Source: Candidatus Phycosocius spiralis
Lineage (GTDB): Bacteria > Pseudomonadota > Alphaproteobacteria > Caulobacterales > Aquidulcibacteraceae
Length of the DNA stretch: 64,000 nt
Reading direction: 5' to 3'
Assembly: GCF_030158815.1 (NCBI RefSeq)
Contig: NZ_BPFZ01000003.1
Location: 124,001-188,000 of the forward strand
This document shows positions 10,043 through 17,720 of the stretch, piece by piece. The notes beneath the pieces are model-generated. The model worked only from the letters and a program-made list of their open reading frames with translations, made no database searches and was not told the origin of the DNA. The position numbers were made by a program, and so were the translations under genes. The stretch's first letter is position 1; every line of letters starts with the position of its first letter.

Positions 10043-10109
10043 CCGCATTTCATTCATCGGATCGGCCTTTTGAAGCATGGGCTTCTTGGGGCCAAGGAGG
10101 ACGCGGATC

Positions 10110-10937
10110 ATGGCCTTGCTGAGTTTTGAACGCAAATACCGTGTTCGGGGTGGGACGCTGATTGGCGGCGACCTCTTCGACTTTTGGGTGGGCCCGTTTT
10201 ATGTGGGCTTTTTTGGAGTAACCGCCAGTTTCTTTGCGATACTAGGCACCGCCTTGATCTTATATGGCGCGTCCTTAGGGCCGACATGGAACCCTTGGCT
10301 AATCGATATTCAACCGCCTGCTGAATCCTATGGATTAGCACTTGCCCCACTTAAGGAGGGCGGCATTTGGCAGGTAGTGACCATGTGTGCCATCGGGGCC
10401 TTTGTCTCTTGGGCGCTGCGCGAAGTGGAGATTTCACGTAAACTAGGGATCGGCCTGCATGTGCCATTTGCTTTTGGCGTGGCGATTTTTGCTTATGTGA
10501 CCTTGGTTGTCATCCGTCCGGTTCTTATGGGTGCTTGGTATCATGGCTTCCCCTATGGGATTTTCACCCACTTAAATTGGGTTTCCAATACGGGCTATAA
10601 ATATATCAATTTTCACTATAATCCGGCGCATATGGTGGCTGTGTCCTTCTTCTTTGTGAACACCTTCGCCTTAGCCTTGCACGGCTCGCTCATTTTGTCG
10701 GCGACCAATCCTGGCAAAGGGGAAGTGGTGAAGACCCCCGAATATGAAGACACTTTCTTCCGCGACATTTTGGGTTATTCCATCGGCACTTTGGGGATTC
10801 ACCGCTTGGGTCTTTTCCTGGCTTTGTCTGCAGGCTTTTGGAGTGCGGTTTGTATCGTCATTAGTGGCCCGGTCTGGTCACTCGGTTGGCCCGAGTGGTG
10901 GGATATGTGGCTTAAACTCCCTATTTGGGGCTCATAG
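10110..10937 (+). CDS. pufL: Photosynthetic reaction centre L subunit
   Basis: This five-helix membrane protein binds the special-pair and accessory bacteriochlorophylls, bacteriopheophytin and quinone together with PufM. The product, 275 residues from ATG 10110, starts [20 protein letters not shown]. It contains [16 protein letters not shown] and [11 protein letters not shown], which carry the bacteriochlorophyll and iron ligand histidines, and [10 protein letters not shown] near the C terminus. I reject the upstream ATG at 10077 because AGGAGG precedes 10110. pufM follows after 15 bp. Confidence 0.98.
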
Positions 10938-10952
10938 GCAGGAGCATTTAAC

Positions 10953-11885
10953 ATGGCTGGCTATCAAAACATTTTCACTCAAGTTCAAGTCCGTGGCCCT
11001 GCTGAATTGGGAATTCCACTTCCCAAGGGGAGTTTGGAACGCGATGGCGAAGGCTTTATCGGCATATCGCGTCTCCTAGGCACGATTGGTAACGCCCAGA
11101 TCGGCCCCATTTATCTGGGCTGGACTGGGATTGCGTCGCTCTTCTTTGGCTTTCTTGCTTTTGAAATCATTGGGCTCAATATGTTCGCATCTGTGAACTG
11201 GGATCCCATTGAGTTCATTCGCCGACTGCCCTGGTTGACCTTAAATCCACCCCCACCTGAGCAGGGGTTCAATCTGTTTCCCCCGCTCGATCAAGGCGGA
11301 TGGTGGGTGATGGCTGGGTTCTTCCTGACCACCTCACTCCTGTTGTGGTGGGTACGCACTTATAACCGCGCCAAAGCCTTAGGTTTGGGTACCCATGTTG
11401 CCTGGGCCTTTGCCTCTGCGATTTGGCTCTTCTTGGTGCTGGGCTTCATCCGCCCTGCTTTGATGGGTAGCTGGAGCGAGGCGGTGCCATTTGGGATCTT
11501 TACCCATTTGGATTGGACCGGGGCTTTCTCCATCACTTATGGCAATCTGTTCTATAATCCGTTCCATTGTCTTTCCATCGTGTTTCTCTATGGCTCTGCC
11601 CTTTTGTTCGCGATGCATGGTGCAACCATTTTGGCTGTGAGCCGTTATGGTGGGGAGCGCGAGATTGAACAAATCACAGACCGCGGCACGGCTTCAGAAC
11701 GCGCTGCTCTTTTCTGGCGCTGGACCATGGGCTTTAATGCATCCATGGAATCGATCCATCGTTGGGCTTGGTGGTTTGCGGTTTTAACAACCTTGACCGG
11801 CGGAATTGGTATTTTATTGACCGGCACCGTGGTGAGCGACTGGTATGGGTGGGCACAGGTCCACCATTATGCCCCACCCCTCTAA
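10953..11885 (+). CDS. pufM: Photosynthetic reaction centre M subunit
   Basis: This is the partner of PufL in the type-II reaction centre. The 310-residue product has the expected N terminus ([20 protein letters not shown]) and membrane helices with [16 protein letters not shown] and [11 protein letters not shown]. The [19 protein letters not shown] segment supplies the Glu ligand of the non-haem iron, and [13 protein letters not shown] follows near the C terminus. No pufC or pufX follows; the next gene is dxs. A tetrahaem cytochrome subunit, if the cell has one, must be encoded elsewhere. Confidence 0.98.
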
Positions 11886-11901
11886 ATCGCTTATTTGATC
11901 G

Positions 11902-11925
11902 GGGCCAAAGTATTTTCTTTGGCCC
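11902..11925 (+). other. Hairpin at the 3' end of the puf message
   Basis: GGGCCAAAG (11902-11910) and CTTTGGCCC (11917-11925) form a perfect 9-bp stem with a 6-nt loop, 16 bp after the pufM stop. No U-tract follows, so it may be a 3' stability element or a weak terminator, with read-through into dxs. It also argues against the far-upstream dxs start codon. Confidence 0.55.
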
Positions 11926-11951
11926 GCCTTCAACCTCGAAGGATCCATGCC

Positions 11952-13874
11952 ATGCTCGAAACACCGTTATTGGATACAATCCAAAACACCTCTGACCTTC
12001 GCTTATTGGCACGTGATCAGCTTGCCCCTCTAGCAGAGGAAGTGCGCGCCACCATGATTGATGCGGTTTCGGTCACCGGCGGGCATTTAGGCGCAGGCCT
12101 TGGTGTGGTTGAGCTCACCCTCGCACTCCATCATGTGTTTGATACCCCAAGTGACATTTTAATCTGGGATGTTGGGCATCAGGCCTATCCCCATAAGATT
12201 TTAACCGGCCGACGGGATCGTATTCGCACCTTGCGCCAAGAAAATGGCCTGTCCGGTTTTACAAAGCGGGCTGAAAGCGTGTTTGATCCATTCGGTGCCG
12301 CTCATGCCGCCACCTCCATCTCAGCTGCGCTTGGCTTTTGTGTTGCACGCGACCTTAAAGGGGCCAGCAACCATGTGATCGCTGTAATCGGTGATGGCTC
12401 GATGACAGCGGGTATGGCCTATGAGGCGATGAATATTGCAGCCGCTTCGACCAAGAGACTTATCGTCATCCTTAATGATAATAATATGTCGATTGCCCCA
12501 CCTGTAGGTGCGATGAGCAATTACTTTGCCCGCCTCCTCTCTGGAAGATCTTTCCTGTCCTTGCGCAAAGCCGCTAAGAAAATGATTGAAGTGTGGCCCC
12601 AGCCCTTGGCAGATGCAGCCCGAAAAGCTGATGAGTATGCGCGCGGTATGGTACAAGGGGGCACCTTTTTCGAAGAATTAGGCTTCCATTATATCGGTGT
12701 CGTCGATGGCCATGATTTGGAAACTTTGGTGCCAATTTTGCACAATGCCAGTGCGATTGATCATAAACCTGTTTTAATTCATGTGCGCACCCAAAAGGGC
12801 AAGGGCTATGCCCCTGCCGAAAGTGCCGCTGATAAATATCATGGCGTGGCTAAGTTCAATGTCATCACGGGCGAACAGCAAAAGGCCCCCGCTGGCCCCC
12901 CCAGCTACACCCAAGTCTTCGGTCAATCCTTGGTGCACGAAGCGCGCAAGGACAGCGCGATTGTAGCGATCACCGCGGCAATGCCCAGCGGTACAGGCCT
13001 TGATATCTTTCAAAATGAGTTTCCAGATCGCATGTTTGATGTCGGCATCGCAGAACAGCATGCCGTTACGTTTGCAGCAGGCCTTGCCGCTGACGGCATG
13101 AAGCCCTTTGCCGCGATCTACTCTACTTTCTTACAGCGCGGCTATGACCAAGTGGTCCATGATGTGGCGATCCAAAGGCTGCCTGTTCGTTTTGCGATTG
13201 ACCGCGCAGGCTTAGTTGGTGCCGACGGGGCGACCCACGCGGGGTCTTTTGACATCGGGTTTTTAGGCGCTCTGCCTGGATTTGTCCTGATGGGTGCGGC
13301 TGATGAAGTAGAACTCGCCCGCATGGTCGCCACCTGCGCCGCCTATGACCATGGACCCAGTGGGGTGCGGTACCCCCGCGGGGAAGCCTTGGGCCTTGAC
13401 ATTCCCGCCGATCCACAGCCCTTAGAGATCGGGCGGGGGCGCATTCTACGCGAAGGCACTAAGATCGCGCTTGTTTCGTTTGGTTCCAGACTAAAAGATA
13501 CATTGCGTGCGGCAGATCGTCTTGCTGCGATGGGCCTCTCCACCTCAGTTGCAGATGCTCGCTTCGCCAAGCCTATTGATGAAGAGTTGATAGGCAGACT
13601 TGCACGTGAGCATGAGGTTATGCTTACCATCGAGGAAGGTGCGGTTGGCGGATTTGGCGCATTTGTTTTGCATTTTCTAGCTCGTGAAGGCGCTTTCGAC
13701 AAAGGTCTTTGCATTCGCACATTGACCTTGCCTGACCGCTTCCAAGATCAAGCAAGCCCTGCGGCCATGGTGGCTGCAGCAGGTCTTGACTGCGAGGGGA
13801 TCGTGTCTGCTGCCCTTCAAGCGCTAGGTTTAGAAGTGGAAGCGCCACCACGTATGGCCTCTTTCATGGCTTAA
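11952..13874 (+). CDS. dxs: 1-deoxy-D-xylulose-5-phosphate synthase
   Basis: This ThDP enzyme condenses pyruvate and glyceraldehyde-3-phosphate in the first step of the MEP isoprenoid pathway, feeding carotenoid and bacteriochlorophyll synthesis. The 640-residue product has [18 protein letters not shown], the ThDP motif [17 protein letters not shown] near residue 150, [17 protein letters not shown] in the pyrimidine domain and a C-terminal transketolase domain. I use ATG 11952 (MLETPLLD). The open frame begins at 11895 but runs through the puf hairpin. A dxs copy after pufM is also known in Rhodobacter. Confidence 0.96.
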
Positions 13875-14206
13875 TGTCTGATCGCATTACCAAGCCAATA
13901 AAACCATCTATTCTTTTGAATAACCCTTCAGGACGCGAAGAATTATGGCACTGCGCAATAGTCAACGGTGGTTTATGCTGGCCAACTCTGTGTCGGAACA
14001 CTATTGAAATAGGAACACTTCGGCCAAGTTGGGTTTAGAGCACTGGTCATCTGATCCCTGGTTGTGCCACCCCCTTTTCAAAGGGTTGCGGCATTTGAAT
14101 AGGGAAGTTCGGGAAGCAGCAGCTTGAAGCAAAGCTTTTAAAGACTGAATATGGAATGTCGCACTCCAGTTTGAGCCAATCATGACCCGTATTGCACCAA
14201 GCCTAA
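13875..14206. other. Intergenic gap dxs-rpoH, no gene seen
   Basis: These 332 bp lie between the convergent ends of dxs and the rpoH-type gene. No frame has coding character. A short CCCTTT/AAAGGG inverted repeat at 14072-14085 may belong to a transcription end, but its 2-nt loop makes it weak. I see no RNA gene. Confidence 0.5.
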
Positions 14207-15103
14207 TCAAACGTCTGGTAATAGACCACTATCTTCAGGGTCGCCAAGTCGCTTGAGCAAAGCGGATTTAAGCTTCTTCATTGCCTGATGTTCAATTTGG
14301 CGGACACGTTCTTTGGAAATACCCATACGAGTGCCCAATGCTTCTAGAGTTACACCTTCTTCGGTCAGGCGGCGCTCTTGAATGATCATCGATTCACGGG
14401 GGTTTAAAGATCGTAACGCTTCTTCAATCCATTGCTTGCGCCGACTTGCGTCGGTACGTTCCATCACATCTTGGTCAGGAAGAATACCCTCATCGGCCAA
14501 TAAATCCTGCCATTCGCCACTGTCATCGTAACCTTCCGACATCGGGGCATTAAGTGAGCGGTCATGGGCGGACACTCGCGCCGCCATGTGTTCAACTTCC
14601 CGCTCGCTCACTCCCAACTTGTTAGCAATGAATGCGCGGTTTACCTGCGACATCATCGCGTCGCCCGTATCGCTGATCACGGCGCGCAAGCGGCGTAGAT
14701 TAAAAAATAAGGACTTTTGCGCCGCTGTTGTTCCCGTACGCACGATCGACCAATTGCGTAATACATAGTCTTGAATAGCCGAACGTATCCACCAAGCCGC
14801 ATAGGTGGAAAATCGCACATCGCGTTCAGGTTCAAATCGTGCAGCGGCTTGCATCAGACCAATATTACCTTCTTGCACCAGATCGCTCATTGGTAGACCA
14901 TAATTGGCAAACCGTTTGGCCATTGAAATAACCAAGCGCATATAGGCCGTTGTGAGTTCGTGCAGGGCTTTTTCATCGTGGTGATCACGCCATTTCGATG
15001 CCAGCACCCGCTCATGATCATGTTCTAGAAGCGGTGCCTTCATTGCCTGCTTAACGAAGCGCCGCGAAGCATTAATGGAATCGGTGGTTTCATAACTGGC
15101 CAT
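14207..15103 (-). CDS. RpoH-type alternative sigma factor
   Basis: This group-3 sigma70 factor of 298 residues has region 2 with SDLVQEGNIGLMQAAARFEP and FSTYAAWWIRSAIQDYVLRN. The RpoH-box QKSLFFNLRRLRA is diagnostic for sigma-32-like factors. The region 4 helix-turn-helix is LGTRMGISKERVRQIEHQA. I start it at ATG 15103, preceded by GGAGAG; a GTG at 15124 is less likely. An RpoE-type promoter upstream suggests it is the RpoHII kind, induced by singlet oxygen in Rhodobacter. This fits its place next to the photosynthesis cluster. Whether it is the only RpoH in the genome cannot be told. Confidence 0.92.
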   Translation of the reverse strand: MASYETTDSINASRRFVKQAMKAPLLEHDHERVLASKWRDHHDEKALHELTTAYMRLVISMAKRFANYGLPMSDLVQEGNIGLMQAAARFEPERDVRFSTYAAWWIRSAIQDYVLRNWSIVRTGTTAAQKSLFFNLRRLRAVISDTGDAMMSQVNRAFIANKLGVSEREVEHMAARVSAHDRSLNAPMSEGYDDSGEWQDLLADEGILPDQDVMERTDASRRKQWIEEALRSLNPRESMIIQERRLTEEGVTLEALGTRMGISKERVRQIEHQAMKKLKSALLKRLGDPEDSGLLPDV

Positions 15104-15213
15104 GTGATCTCTCCGATCGTACACCCAAAAACGAGGCCCATTGCTCCACCAGAGCTTTCAATTGCTATGATGGCGATTAAGGTGCCAAATTGCTTATCTG
15201 GTCGAATTTAGAT

Positions 15214-15243
15214 GTTTTACGCGGCCTGTCTTGGTTCGGATCA
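15214..15243 (-). promoter_or_regulatory. RpoE (singlet-oxygen ECF sigma)-type promoter of the rpoH gene
   Basis: On the minus strand, TGATCC (15243-15238) is followed after exactly 18 bp by TAAAAC (15219-15214). The consensus of Rhodobacter RpoE promoters is TGATCC-N18-TAAGA-like, and rpoHII is a known target. It would give a leader of roughly 100 nt before the rpoH ATG at 15103. Orientation, spacing and target gene all agree. Confidence 0.7.
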
Positions 15244-15336: not shown

Positions 15337-16860
15337 TTAGCTTAGTCGCTTAAAGGCAATGGGAGGAAAATCGGCGTCCATCTCAACTTGTAACTCGCCG
15401 ATGTGGCCTGCCATATTCGACAAAAAACTAAACCCAATCATAGCAAGATCAATATCATCTTCACGCAATGGCTTGGCTTTGAACACATCATAATGCCAAT
15501 GCTGCAACCGAACAGGCATGTCATTATAGGTCGCCCGCAAACCAAGATCATCCATTTCTACCTGCCATAGGCCATAACCGTGATGATGATAGGTGCCAGT
15601 AAAGGCGGATAAGGACCGCGACGGACTGGTCAGTGGGATCGGCGTGGGAGGAACAAGACTTGCCGCTTTGGCTTCATGGATCGCACGTCGCGCAAGACCA
15701 TTTTCGGACCAATTCGCAGGCTCAAGACCTAAAAGTGCATCACAAATATCAAGGCTGACATGCCCTGGCAATGGTGTCCCGCGCAAATTGGCAAAGGCAA
15801 TGATACCCAAATGATGGTCCGGAAATAGTGTTAGGCGTGAAGAATAGCCGTTGAGATTGCCGCCATGGGCGACCCGACGCATGCCGCGATAACTATCAAT
15901 CCGCCATCCCAAACCGTAAAAGCCCCGTCCGAAATGAGGGGTGTCAGGTTGGCCACCGGTTGGGATCAATGGCTCCCACATCGCGTCGCACTGGGCTTGG
16001 GAGATCAGTCGTTGCCCTTGATAGACGCCCCGTCCAAGTTGAAGGGCAATCCAGGCGCTAAACTGTGTGACAGAAGCATAGAGCGCTCCGGCTGGACCTA
16101 TCGCATCTTCAGGTCGCAACGGGATTTGCTTGGCAAGATGTAGTGGGTCCAGAGTATGGCCAAAGGCGAAATCTGGGTCTTGAACCATGCTAAGTGGACT
16201 AAAGCCGGTGCGCGCCATAGCGAGAGGCTTTAATATGCGGGCTTGGATAAAATCTTCCCAAGTCTGGTCTGTGACCCGCTCTACAACAAGGCCAACGACA
16301 ATATACATCAAATTGGTATAATGATAGCTGCTTCGTAAAGGAGAAAGCATCGGCAGATACGCCATCCTTTCCATCACATCAGCTTTGGTGAGTAAACTAT
16401 TATGATACCAAACTAGGTCATGGGAGCCCAGTCCGGTGCGGTGCGATAACATATCACGCAAGCTTAAGCTGGCATACTCAAGCCCACCTGCAACTTTAAA
16501 ACCAGGCAGATAAGTGGTTACCGGTTCATCCCAATCAAGCTTACCTTCATCGACCAAGAGCGCAATCGATGCAGCCGTAAAAGCTTTGGTCAATGAAGCG
16601 CATCCAAACAAGGTGTCGGGATGGATCATACGGGTTTGAGCGCCATCGGCCCACCCAAAACCCTTAGCATAAATCAACATGCCATCCTTGACGATGCCAA
16701 GCGCTAGACCAGGTACCCGCCATTGCTGACGGGCTAAATCAAGTTTGCCATCCAAGCCAACTAAAGGATTTTTGATCGGGCTTTTCCCAAAAGCGGGCCC
16801 AATCATAGTAGAACTTAAACCCGTCCCCAATAAGGATATAAATGCGCGTCGCTGCATCAC
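15337..16860 (-). CDS. Exported serine hydrolase, class C beta-lactamase family
   Basis: The 507-residue protein has a twin-arginine-like signal (MMQRRAFISLLGTGLSSTMI, cleavage probably near AFG). Its penicillin-binding-protein-like domain has the SxxK motif ASLTKAFT at about residue 90 and a YxN motif in HYTNLMYIV near residue 180. After about residue 410 a separate C-terminal domain (FTGTYHHHGYGLWQVEMDD) resembles the DUF3471 beta-barrel seen in such hydrolases. Substrate unknown: peptidase, esterase or amidase activity are all possible, and drug resistance should not be assumed. It is single, downstream of no obvious operon partner. Confidence 0.85.
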   Translation of the reverse strand: MMQRRAFISLLGTGLSSTMIGPAFGKSPIKNPLVGLDGKLDLARQQWRVPGLALGIVKDGMLIYAKGFGWADGAQTRMIHPDTLFGCASLTKAFTAASIALLVDEGKLDWDEPVTTYLPGFKVAGGLEYASLSLRDMLSHRTGLGSHDLVWYHNSLLTKADVMERMAYLPMLSPLRSSYHYTNLMYIVVGLVVERVTDQTWEDFIQARILKPLAMARTGFSPLSMVQDPDFAFGHTLDPLHLAKQIPLRPEDAIGPAGALYASVTQFSAWIALQLGRGVYQGQRLISQAQCDAMWEPLIPTGGQPDTPHFGRGFYGLGWRIDSYRGMRRVAHGGNLNGYSSRLTLFPDHHLGIIAFANLRGTPLPGHVSLDICDALLGLEPANWSENGLARRAIHEAKAASLVPPTPIPLTSPSRSLSAFTGTYHHHGYGLWQVEMDDLGLRATYNDMPVRLQHWHYDVFKAKPLREDDIDLAMIGFSFLSNMAGHIGELQVEMDADFPPIAFKRLS

Positions 16861-17180: not shown

Positions 17181-17501
17181 TTAACCAGCTGTGAGTTGTT
17201 GGCGGGCAACATCCAATAGACGTTCAATTTCACGACGGATCTGGTGTTCACTCACTTCACATTGAGCGGCGGTAAAATCAGCTTTGATTTTGCGATAAAC
17301 ATCTTCATCGCCAGCTTCTTCAAAGTCAGCAAGTACGATAGACTTGGCGTAGGCCTCAGCCTCTTCACCCGTCAGGCCCAAAAGCTCAGCAGCCCAAGTC
17401 CCCAGCAGCTTATTGCGGCGGGCGGTGATTTTAAACGCAAGCTCACTGTCGTGGGCGTATTTTGCTTCGTGCGCGGTCTTGCGCTTATCAAACTGGCTCA
17501 T
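17181..17501 (-). CDS. F1-ATPase inhibitor zeta subunit (DUF1476)
   Basis: The 106-residue protein begins MSQFDKRKTAHEAKYAHDSE and has the ITARRNKLLGTWAAELLGLT segment and the IRREIERLLDVARQQL tail of the alphaproteobacterial DUF1476 family. The Paracoccus member is the zeta inhibitor of the F1Fo-ATPase, whose N terminus blocks ATP hydrolysis. The open frame reaches 17618, but the ATG at 17501 matches the family start. It is divergent from purC. Confidence 0.9.
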   Translation of the reverse strand: MSQFDKRKTAHEAKYAHDSELAFKITARRNKLLGTWAAELLGLTGEEAEAYAKSIVLADFEEAGDEDVYRKIKADFTAAQCEVSEHQIRREIERLLDVARQQLTAG

Positions 17502-17720
17502 GATCAAGCTTCCTTGTAACACGGCTTCCGACTTGGGGCATGTAGGGATGAATGCTGGGTTTGGAAAGGTGTGTGCGCAGACAAGTGCAAGGGATGCACC
17601 ACATGATTGAGGCATCAAGCGCAGCCTGTTAGGGTGGTAGTGCTGTTAGGAGTTTCGACTCAACACCAAACCGGTTTTGAGGGCGTGCCTTGCCACCTAA
17701 CCATTGAGGAGAGCGCGACC

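Follow-up and report, generated by a model that had tools for sequence, protein, structure and literature searches.

The element on the minus strand at positions 15214-15243 of the 64 kb stretch of DNA analysed here (the window) is probably the RpoE promoter of an rpoHII-type gene, in a cascade that appears to combine a relocated feedback with a zinc-free ChrR (ChrR-A) and a second, inducible ChrR (ChrR-B). The step from RpoE to RpoHII is already known, but the apparently rewired feedback differs from the textbook circuit in this lineage, and a partial literature search returned nothing on zinc-free ChrR proteins or on an RpoE-driven unlinked chrR.

The rpoH gene and its promoter element

The rpoH gene (14207-15103, minus strand) encodes a second sigma-32 factor of 298 AA, which scored 410.5 bits against the NF005693 profile (cut-off 315) and 297 bits against TIGR02392, below the cut-off of the latter, whereas the sigma-32 encoded on contig 4 scored 372 bits against TIGR02392 and exceeded it. 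Based on these scores, we concluded that the window gene is the RpoHII-type copy, distinct from that of contig 4, in agreement with the RpoHII-like target of the original prediction. The nearest named genome for the protein was that of Hyphomonadaceae bacterium UKL13-1 (84% identity).

The promoter had been proposed as TGATCC-N18-TAAAAC, which on the minus strand from 15243 to 15214 reads TGATCCGAACCAAGACAGGCCGCGTAAAAC. A pattern search found this arrangement once in the window, where the chance expectation from shuffling was 0.02, and it starts 140 nt upstream of the rpoH ATG at 15103. Rewritten as TGATCC-N16-CGTA-AAAC, the element agrees in each of the 10 positions with TGATCC-N16-CGTA, the ECF11 consensus. 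The -35 element TGATCC lies at 15238-15243 (minus strand; pattern search and conservation), the -10 element CGTA at 15218-15221 within GCGTAAAAC (minus strand; pattern search, consensus, and conservation), and the 5' leader between the promoter element and the rpoH start at 15104-15213 (minus strand; sequence comparison). The rpoHII promoter of R. sphaeroides is one that we take to be of the ECF11 type. TGATCC-N16-CGTA is also the consensus reported from ChIP-Seq of PSPTO_1043, the singlet-oxygen-responsive relative of RpoE in Pseudomonas syringae (PMC5507510).

The letters of the element alone are weak genome-wide evidence, because the exact hexamer pair at a spacing of 17-19 occurred twice in the 2.5 Mb genome against once for a reversed control pattern. 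The second copy is antisense within a 464-AA frame (contig 15, 49300, minus strand), and we rejected the exact-hexamer search as proof of a promoter when taken by itself. That the rpoH element is nevertheless beyond chance follows from its conservation in the genus. TGATCC-N16-CGTA precedes the orthologous rpoH in 9/9 genus genomes (the window's genome and eight congeners), and in the alignment of these nine the -35 and CGTA elements are invariant, while the spacer has a mean identity of 46% and the flanking 30 nt are 69% identical upstream and 59% identical downstream. For a wider comparison, up to 350 nt upstream of 110 rpoH-family loci were used, a set in which at least two genomes are present twice. 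On the forward strand, the pattern TGATCN-N15-17-CGTA occurred in 55 of these regions, whereas the reverse strand gave no match (0/110). It was present at 11/11 loci with an rpoH more than 80% identical to that of the window (nine genomes, two of them counted twice), at 13/16 loci with 60-80% identity, at 31/47 with 50-60%, and at none of the 36 loci below 50%. Consensus match and genus-wide conservation together bear out the RpoE-type promoter ahead of rpoH.

The distance from element to start codon is 71 nt in seven genus genomes, 88 nt in G003, and 140 nt in the window, where the leader exceeds that of the seven congeners by 69 nt, so the start site is possibly not the same. A special RNA fold in this long leader was considered and rejected (z 0.01). 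The strict pattern TGATCC-N15-17-CGTAA was found in 2 to 7 copies per genus genome and, judged by position, lies shortly upstream of chrR-B in 9/9 and of rpoH in 8/9, the TAA version of the pattern missing the rpoH element of G003, which ends in CGTAC. The majority of the remaining strict matches (n=24) were within reading frames. One strict match stands 114 nt upstream of a gene resembling TolQ by eye (L218). Identical or near-identical TGATCC...GCGTAA elements in G004, G001, and G006 (L231, L241, and L252) run antisense to a 225-AA frame and are a possible further RpoE target.

Genomic neighbourhood of rpoH

The original prediction tied rpoH, as second tier of the cascade, to the pigment genes beside it. 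In the window, a profile search placed pufL and pufM of the photosynthetic reaction centre at 10077-11885 (plus strand), followed by dxs (11895-13874, plus strand), which closes the puf-side block and follows pufM in 8/8 congener regions. Convergent with dxs, and separated from it by a junction of 332 bp (13875-14206), is rpoH, with a gene for a beta-lactamase-like serine hydrolase upstream (15337-16860, minus strand). The latter order is kept in 6/6 congener regions, the rpoH block of these six consisting, upstream of rpoH, of the beta-lactamase-like gene, the counterpart of the gene at 17181-17618, and purC. About 7 kb of extra sequence lies between rpoH and the next gene in G003.

The convergent adjacency of rpoH and dxs could be taken to mean that its position couples the stress response to the pigment genes, and in R. 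capsulatus rpoE-chrR is likewise reported near the photosynthesis cluster, an arrangement called unique by the authors (PMC7074977). The congeners argue strongly against this explanation. Although pufM is present in 9/9 genus genomes, neither pufM nor dxs occurs in the six congener rpoH regions (0/6; 14-20 kb each), rpoH occurs in none of the eight congener pufM regions (0/8; 13-15 kb each), and in two genomes with both genes on one contig they are 439 kb (G003) and 545 kb (G004) apart. Among the congener regions compared, the 13875-14206 junction is found in the window's genome only; G001 and G008 were outside the rpoH-region comparison on account of their short contigs. We conclude that rpoH adjoins the puf-dxs block here by rearrangement only, and that its proximity to the pigment genes, which are a separate block in the congeners, is highly unlikely to have a functional meaning. 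The window's genome, at 2.5 Mb, is smaller than those of the eight congeners (3.1-3.7 Mb).

RpoE, two ChrR proteins, and the proposed feedback

The proposed cascade depended on RpoE and ChrR homologues being encoded in the genome, and both were found. On contig 7, rpoE (12804-13448) encodes an ECF sigma factor of 214 AA whose closest solved relative is R. sphaeroides RpoE (2q1z_A, E 6.5e-49; runner-up 1.9e-22). A ChrR-family profile search of the genome gave two loci, one for ChrR-A (215 AA), which follows rpoE, and one for the unlinked ChrR-B, encoded on contig 2 from 36152 onward in an operon with a downstream DUF6134 gene (L005:5837-6511). The only PDB matches of either protein were to R. 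sphaeroides ChrR (2z2s and 2q1z). ChrR-A and ChrR-B are 29% identical to each other and score 96.2 and 129.5 bits, respectively, against TIGR02451 (cut-off 124.5 bits). Two weak additional ChrR-profile matches were seen in G004 (C1:539768-540331). Since rpoE and an adjacent chrR are found on contig 7, the parts of an RpoE-ChrR to RpoH cascade are present, and such a cascade, which as such is known biology, is a well supported prediction for this organism.

The location of the promoters is where this lineage departs from expectation. An RpoE-type element was found upstream of rpoE in 0/9 genus genomes and upstream of the unlinked chrR in 9/9, the chrR-B element of the window's genome lying inside an extended frame, 97 nt upstream of the likely start. 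The wider comparison drew on 150 sampled genomes of the order, ChrR being found in 107 of them at E 1e-15, with further relatives added. It comprised 152 ChrR loci, 112 adjoining rpoE and 40 unlinked, including 19 matches below 88 bits plus one more from the relatives. In an RpoE tree built by a quick method, the window's RpoE fell into a clade comprising 53 rows from as many genomes, with an SH-aLRT of 89, or 82 without two f3 rows. TGATCC-N15-17-CGTA preceded rpoE in 1/53 members of this clade (G016) and in 41/59 operons outside it (57 genomes); an absent rpoE motif alone is not special, because 18/59 operons outside the clade were also without the strict motif.

The unlinked copies gave a very different picture. 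TGATCN-N15-17-CGTA was present upstream of 47 of 49 unlinked ChrR, a set assembled in successive rounds (40 + 7 + 2). Both copies without it (L180 in G010 and L417 in G013) are most similar to the operon ChrR-A type, and each of these genomes carries another unlinked ChrR with the element. Weak cupin matches (L418-L421, 21-78 bits) had no element and were excluded from the ChrR count. Pattern density per 461 bases was 0.546 in the scored regions versus 0.021 elsewhere in the same loci. A motif-bearing unlinked chrR was found in 44/53 clade genomes (37, then seven more on re-search), and no second full-length chrR in nine (G016, G033, G036, G052, G054, G072, G088, G108, and G140). Only G016 among these nine has the rpoE element, leaving 8/53 with neither; its locus, L193, is thus both the sole clade member with the rpoE element and one where an unlinked chrR was not found. 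No unlinked ChrR was found in the genomes of the 59 operons outside the clade. Re-searching 18 outside-clade genomes with the ChrR-B alignment gave no full-length second copy; weak extra matches to this alignment in G018 and G101 were both without an element. Across the 112 operons, no genome was found to combine an rpoE promoter with an unlinked chrR that bears the motif. The promoter counts are not independent of one another because of shared descent, which the Fisher value calculated for the pattern leaves out of account, and much of the promoter pattern may reflect one or a few events on the RpoE tree, the key branch having an SH-aLRT of only 82-89%. In a ChrR phylogeny built with FastTree, a single branch separates the 39 unlinked copies other than L180 from the rest.

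With no element before its own gene, autoregulation lends no support here to RpoE as the factor that reads the rpoH element, and another ECF factor could be imagined in its place. We consider this very unlikely, given that chrR homologues are preceded by the same element, as is, in relatives, the rpoE gene of this family. Moreover, among 31 genomes (the window's own and 30 relatives), an rpoHII orthologue of at least 60% identity was found in 15 and RpoE of the window type in 25; both occurred in 14, and the one genome with rpoHII and without this RpoE is 87% complete. RpoE, the regulator of the singlet-oxygen response, very likely acts on the rpoH element; in R. sphaeroides, rpoHII is reported to depend on RpoE (PMC3441632, PMC6852236). 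The target is not a universal one, because in 11 of the 25 genomes with RpoE no rpoHII orthologue reached 60% identity.

The second departure concerns the metal ligands of ChrR. The cupin ligands H141, H143, E147, and H177 are kept in both ChrR-A and ChrR-B, and the four (HHEH) in all 152 ChrR compared. For the zinc site of the anti-sigma domain, scoring covered H31, C35, and C38 (R. sphaeroides numbering), the reference starting at residue 9 with H6 outside it. At these three positions ChrR-A has Q, K, and R and ChrR-B has H, Q, and A, so that HX3CX2C is absent from both. The two cysteines are missing in 53/53 operon ChrR of the window's RpoE clade. H31, C35, and C38 occur together in 31/112 operon ChrR, in 0/53 of this clade, and in 0/40 unlinked copies; H31 is kept in 9/9 chrR-B copies of the genus. 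In R. sphaeroides, inhibition of RpoE by ChrR is reported to require the zinc of this domain, whose precise role in the response is called unknown in the same source (PMC6852236), and because of this requirement ChrR-A and ChrR-B, being zinc-free, might be unable to inhibit RpoE.

The singlet-oxygen sensing site of ChrR is itself debated, a peptide study proposing the zinc finger of the anti-sigma domain (PMC6432622) and mutants being reported to show that the cupin domain is required for the response (PMC6852236). Natural ChrR proteins that have lost the finger cysteines and kept all cupin ligands offer a direct test of this question. The Caulobacter ChrR system is reported to respond to singlet oxygen (PMC6852236); family f3 may be the family of Caulobacter crescentus ChrR, and the Caulobacter ChrR may be of the cysteine-free kind.

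These differences could in principle be neutral drift within a canonical Rhodobacter-like cascade from RpoE-ChrR to RpoHII. Sigma factor, anti-sigma factor, promoter, and target all agree with such a cascade, and the step from RpoE to rpoHII has been described in R. sphaeroides (PMC3441632, PMC6852236). Against drift stand the opposite promoter counts for rpoE and the unlinked chrR in the nine genus genomes and the loss of both cysteines from every operon of the clade, and we regard it as improbable. Instead, we read the pattern of rpoE and chrR promoters, together with the missing zinc ligands, as a feedback that has moved to another locus and an anti-sigma factor free of zinc. RpoE would be held by the adjacent ChrR-A through its zinc-free anti-sigma domain until singlet oxygen or organic peroxides act on the cupin domain or its metal site, and the freed RpoE would then transcribe rpoH as the second step of a singlet-oxygen/organic-peroxide cascade, the RpoH product presumably driving a broad repair programme. 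RpoE would also transcribe the unlinked chrR-B-DUF6134 operon, and the induced ChrR-B would most likely re-capture RpoE, moving the feedback off the rpoE-chrR-A operon.

As a competing explanation, ChrR-B might be no anti-sigma factor but a cupin enzyme or a helper in ChrR-A turnover, produced when needed along with the DUF6134 protein, much as RSP_1090/1091 are in R. sphaeroides, which would make the circuit a positive one. The DUF6134 gene adjoins chrR-B in 17/19 related loci, in addition to the window's genome, the unlinked copies of family f2 are short, with a weak anti-sigma part, and in R. sphaeroides RSP_1090/1091, members of the RpoE regulon, are reported to promote ChrR degradation (PMC3818230). 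However, ChrR-B of the window's genome has both ChrR domains and exceeds the TIGR02451 cut-off, its H31 is kept throughout the genus, and the mutual exclusion of motif-bearing unlinked chrR and rpoE promoter fits a replaced feedback better. We therefore consider the helper role unlikely, though the most serious of the competing explanations. A direct equivalence of chrR-B with RSP_1090 was rejected, as the latter is described as a fatty-acid-synthesis-type protein and not a ChrR (PMC3818230, PMC7074977).

Extended from this genome to its large alphaproteobacterial clade, the relocated feedback would mean that self-activation of rpoE has been replaced by RpoE-induced chrR-B/DUF6134, that both anti-sigma factors are free of the zinc site, and that the cupin site is the sensor. 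We advance this wider claim tentatively, with confidence just short of even. The promoter swap between rpoE and the unlinked chrR nonetheless amounts to a natural experiment on the ways in which a stress regulator may divide its self-activation from its self-inhibition.

Comparison with known systems

The consensus TGATCC-N16-CGTA is common to the window's rpoH promoter and the PSPTO_1043/1042 system of P. syringae; there, unlike in rpoE-chrR here, the operon itself bears the element and is suggested to be autoregulated (PMC5507510). R. capsulatus likewise has a singlet-oxygen sigma gene beside its photosynthesis cluster in an arrangement not conserved in relatives (PMC7074977), but the gene beside bch/puf is rpoE-chrR (remote homologues), and here it is rpoH.

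The resemblance to the RpoE-ChrR-RpoHII system of R. sphaeroides (ECF11) extends to the RpoE family, the adjacent cupin-type ChrR, the ECF11-type promoter, and the rpoHII target, and to this extent the Rhodobacter-like cascade of the original prediction stands. It does not hold for the regulation of the sigma factor itself: unlike in R. sphaeroides, no RpoE-type element precedes rpoE-chrR, the zinc site HX3CX2C is missing from ChrR-A, and a second chrR carries an RpoE-type element. As for an anti-sigma factor without zinc, the RseA protein of E. coli is a membrane protein without a cupin domain. The anti-sigma helical bundle of the RseA type is functional in a zinc-free form and is described as structurally similar to that of ChrR (PMC6852236).
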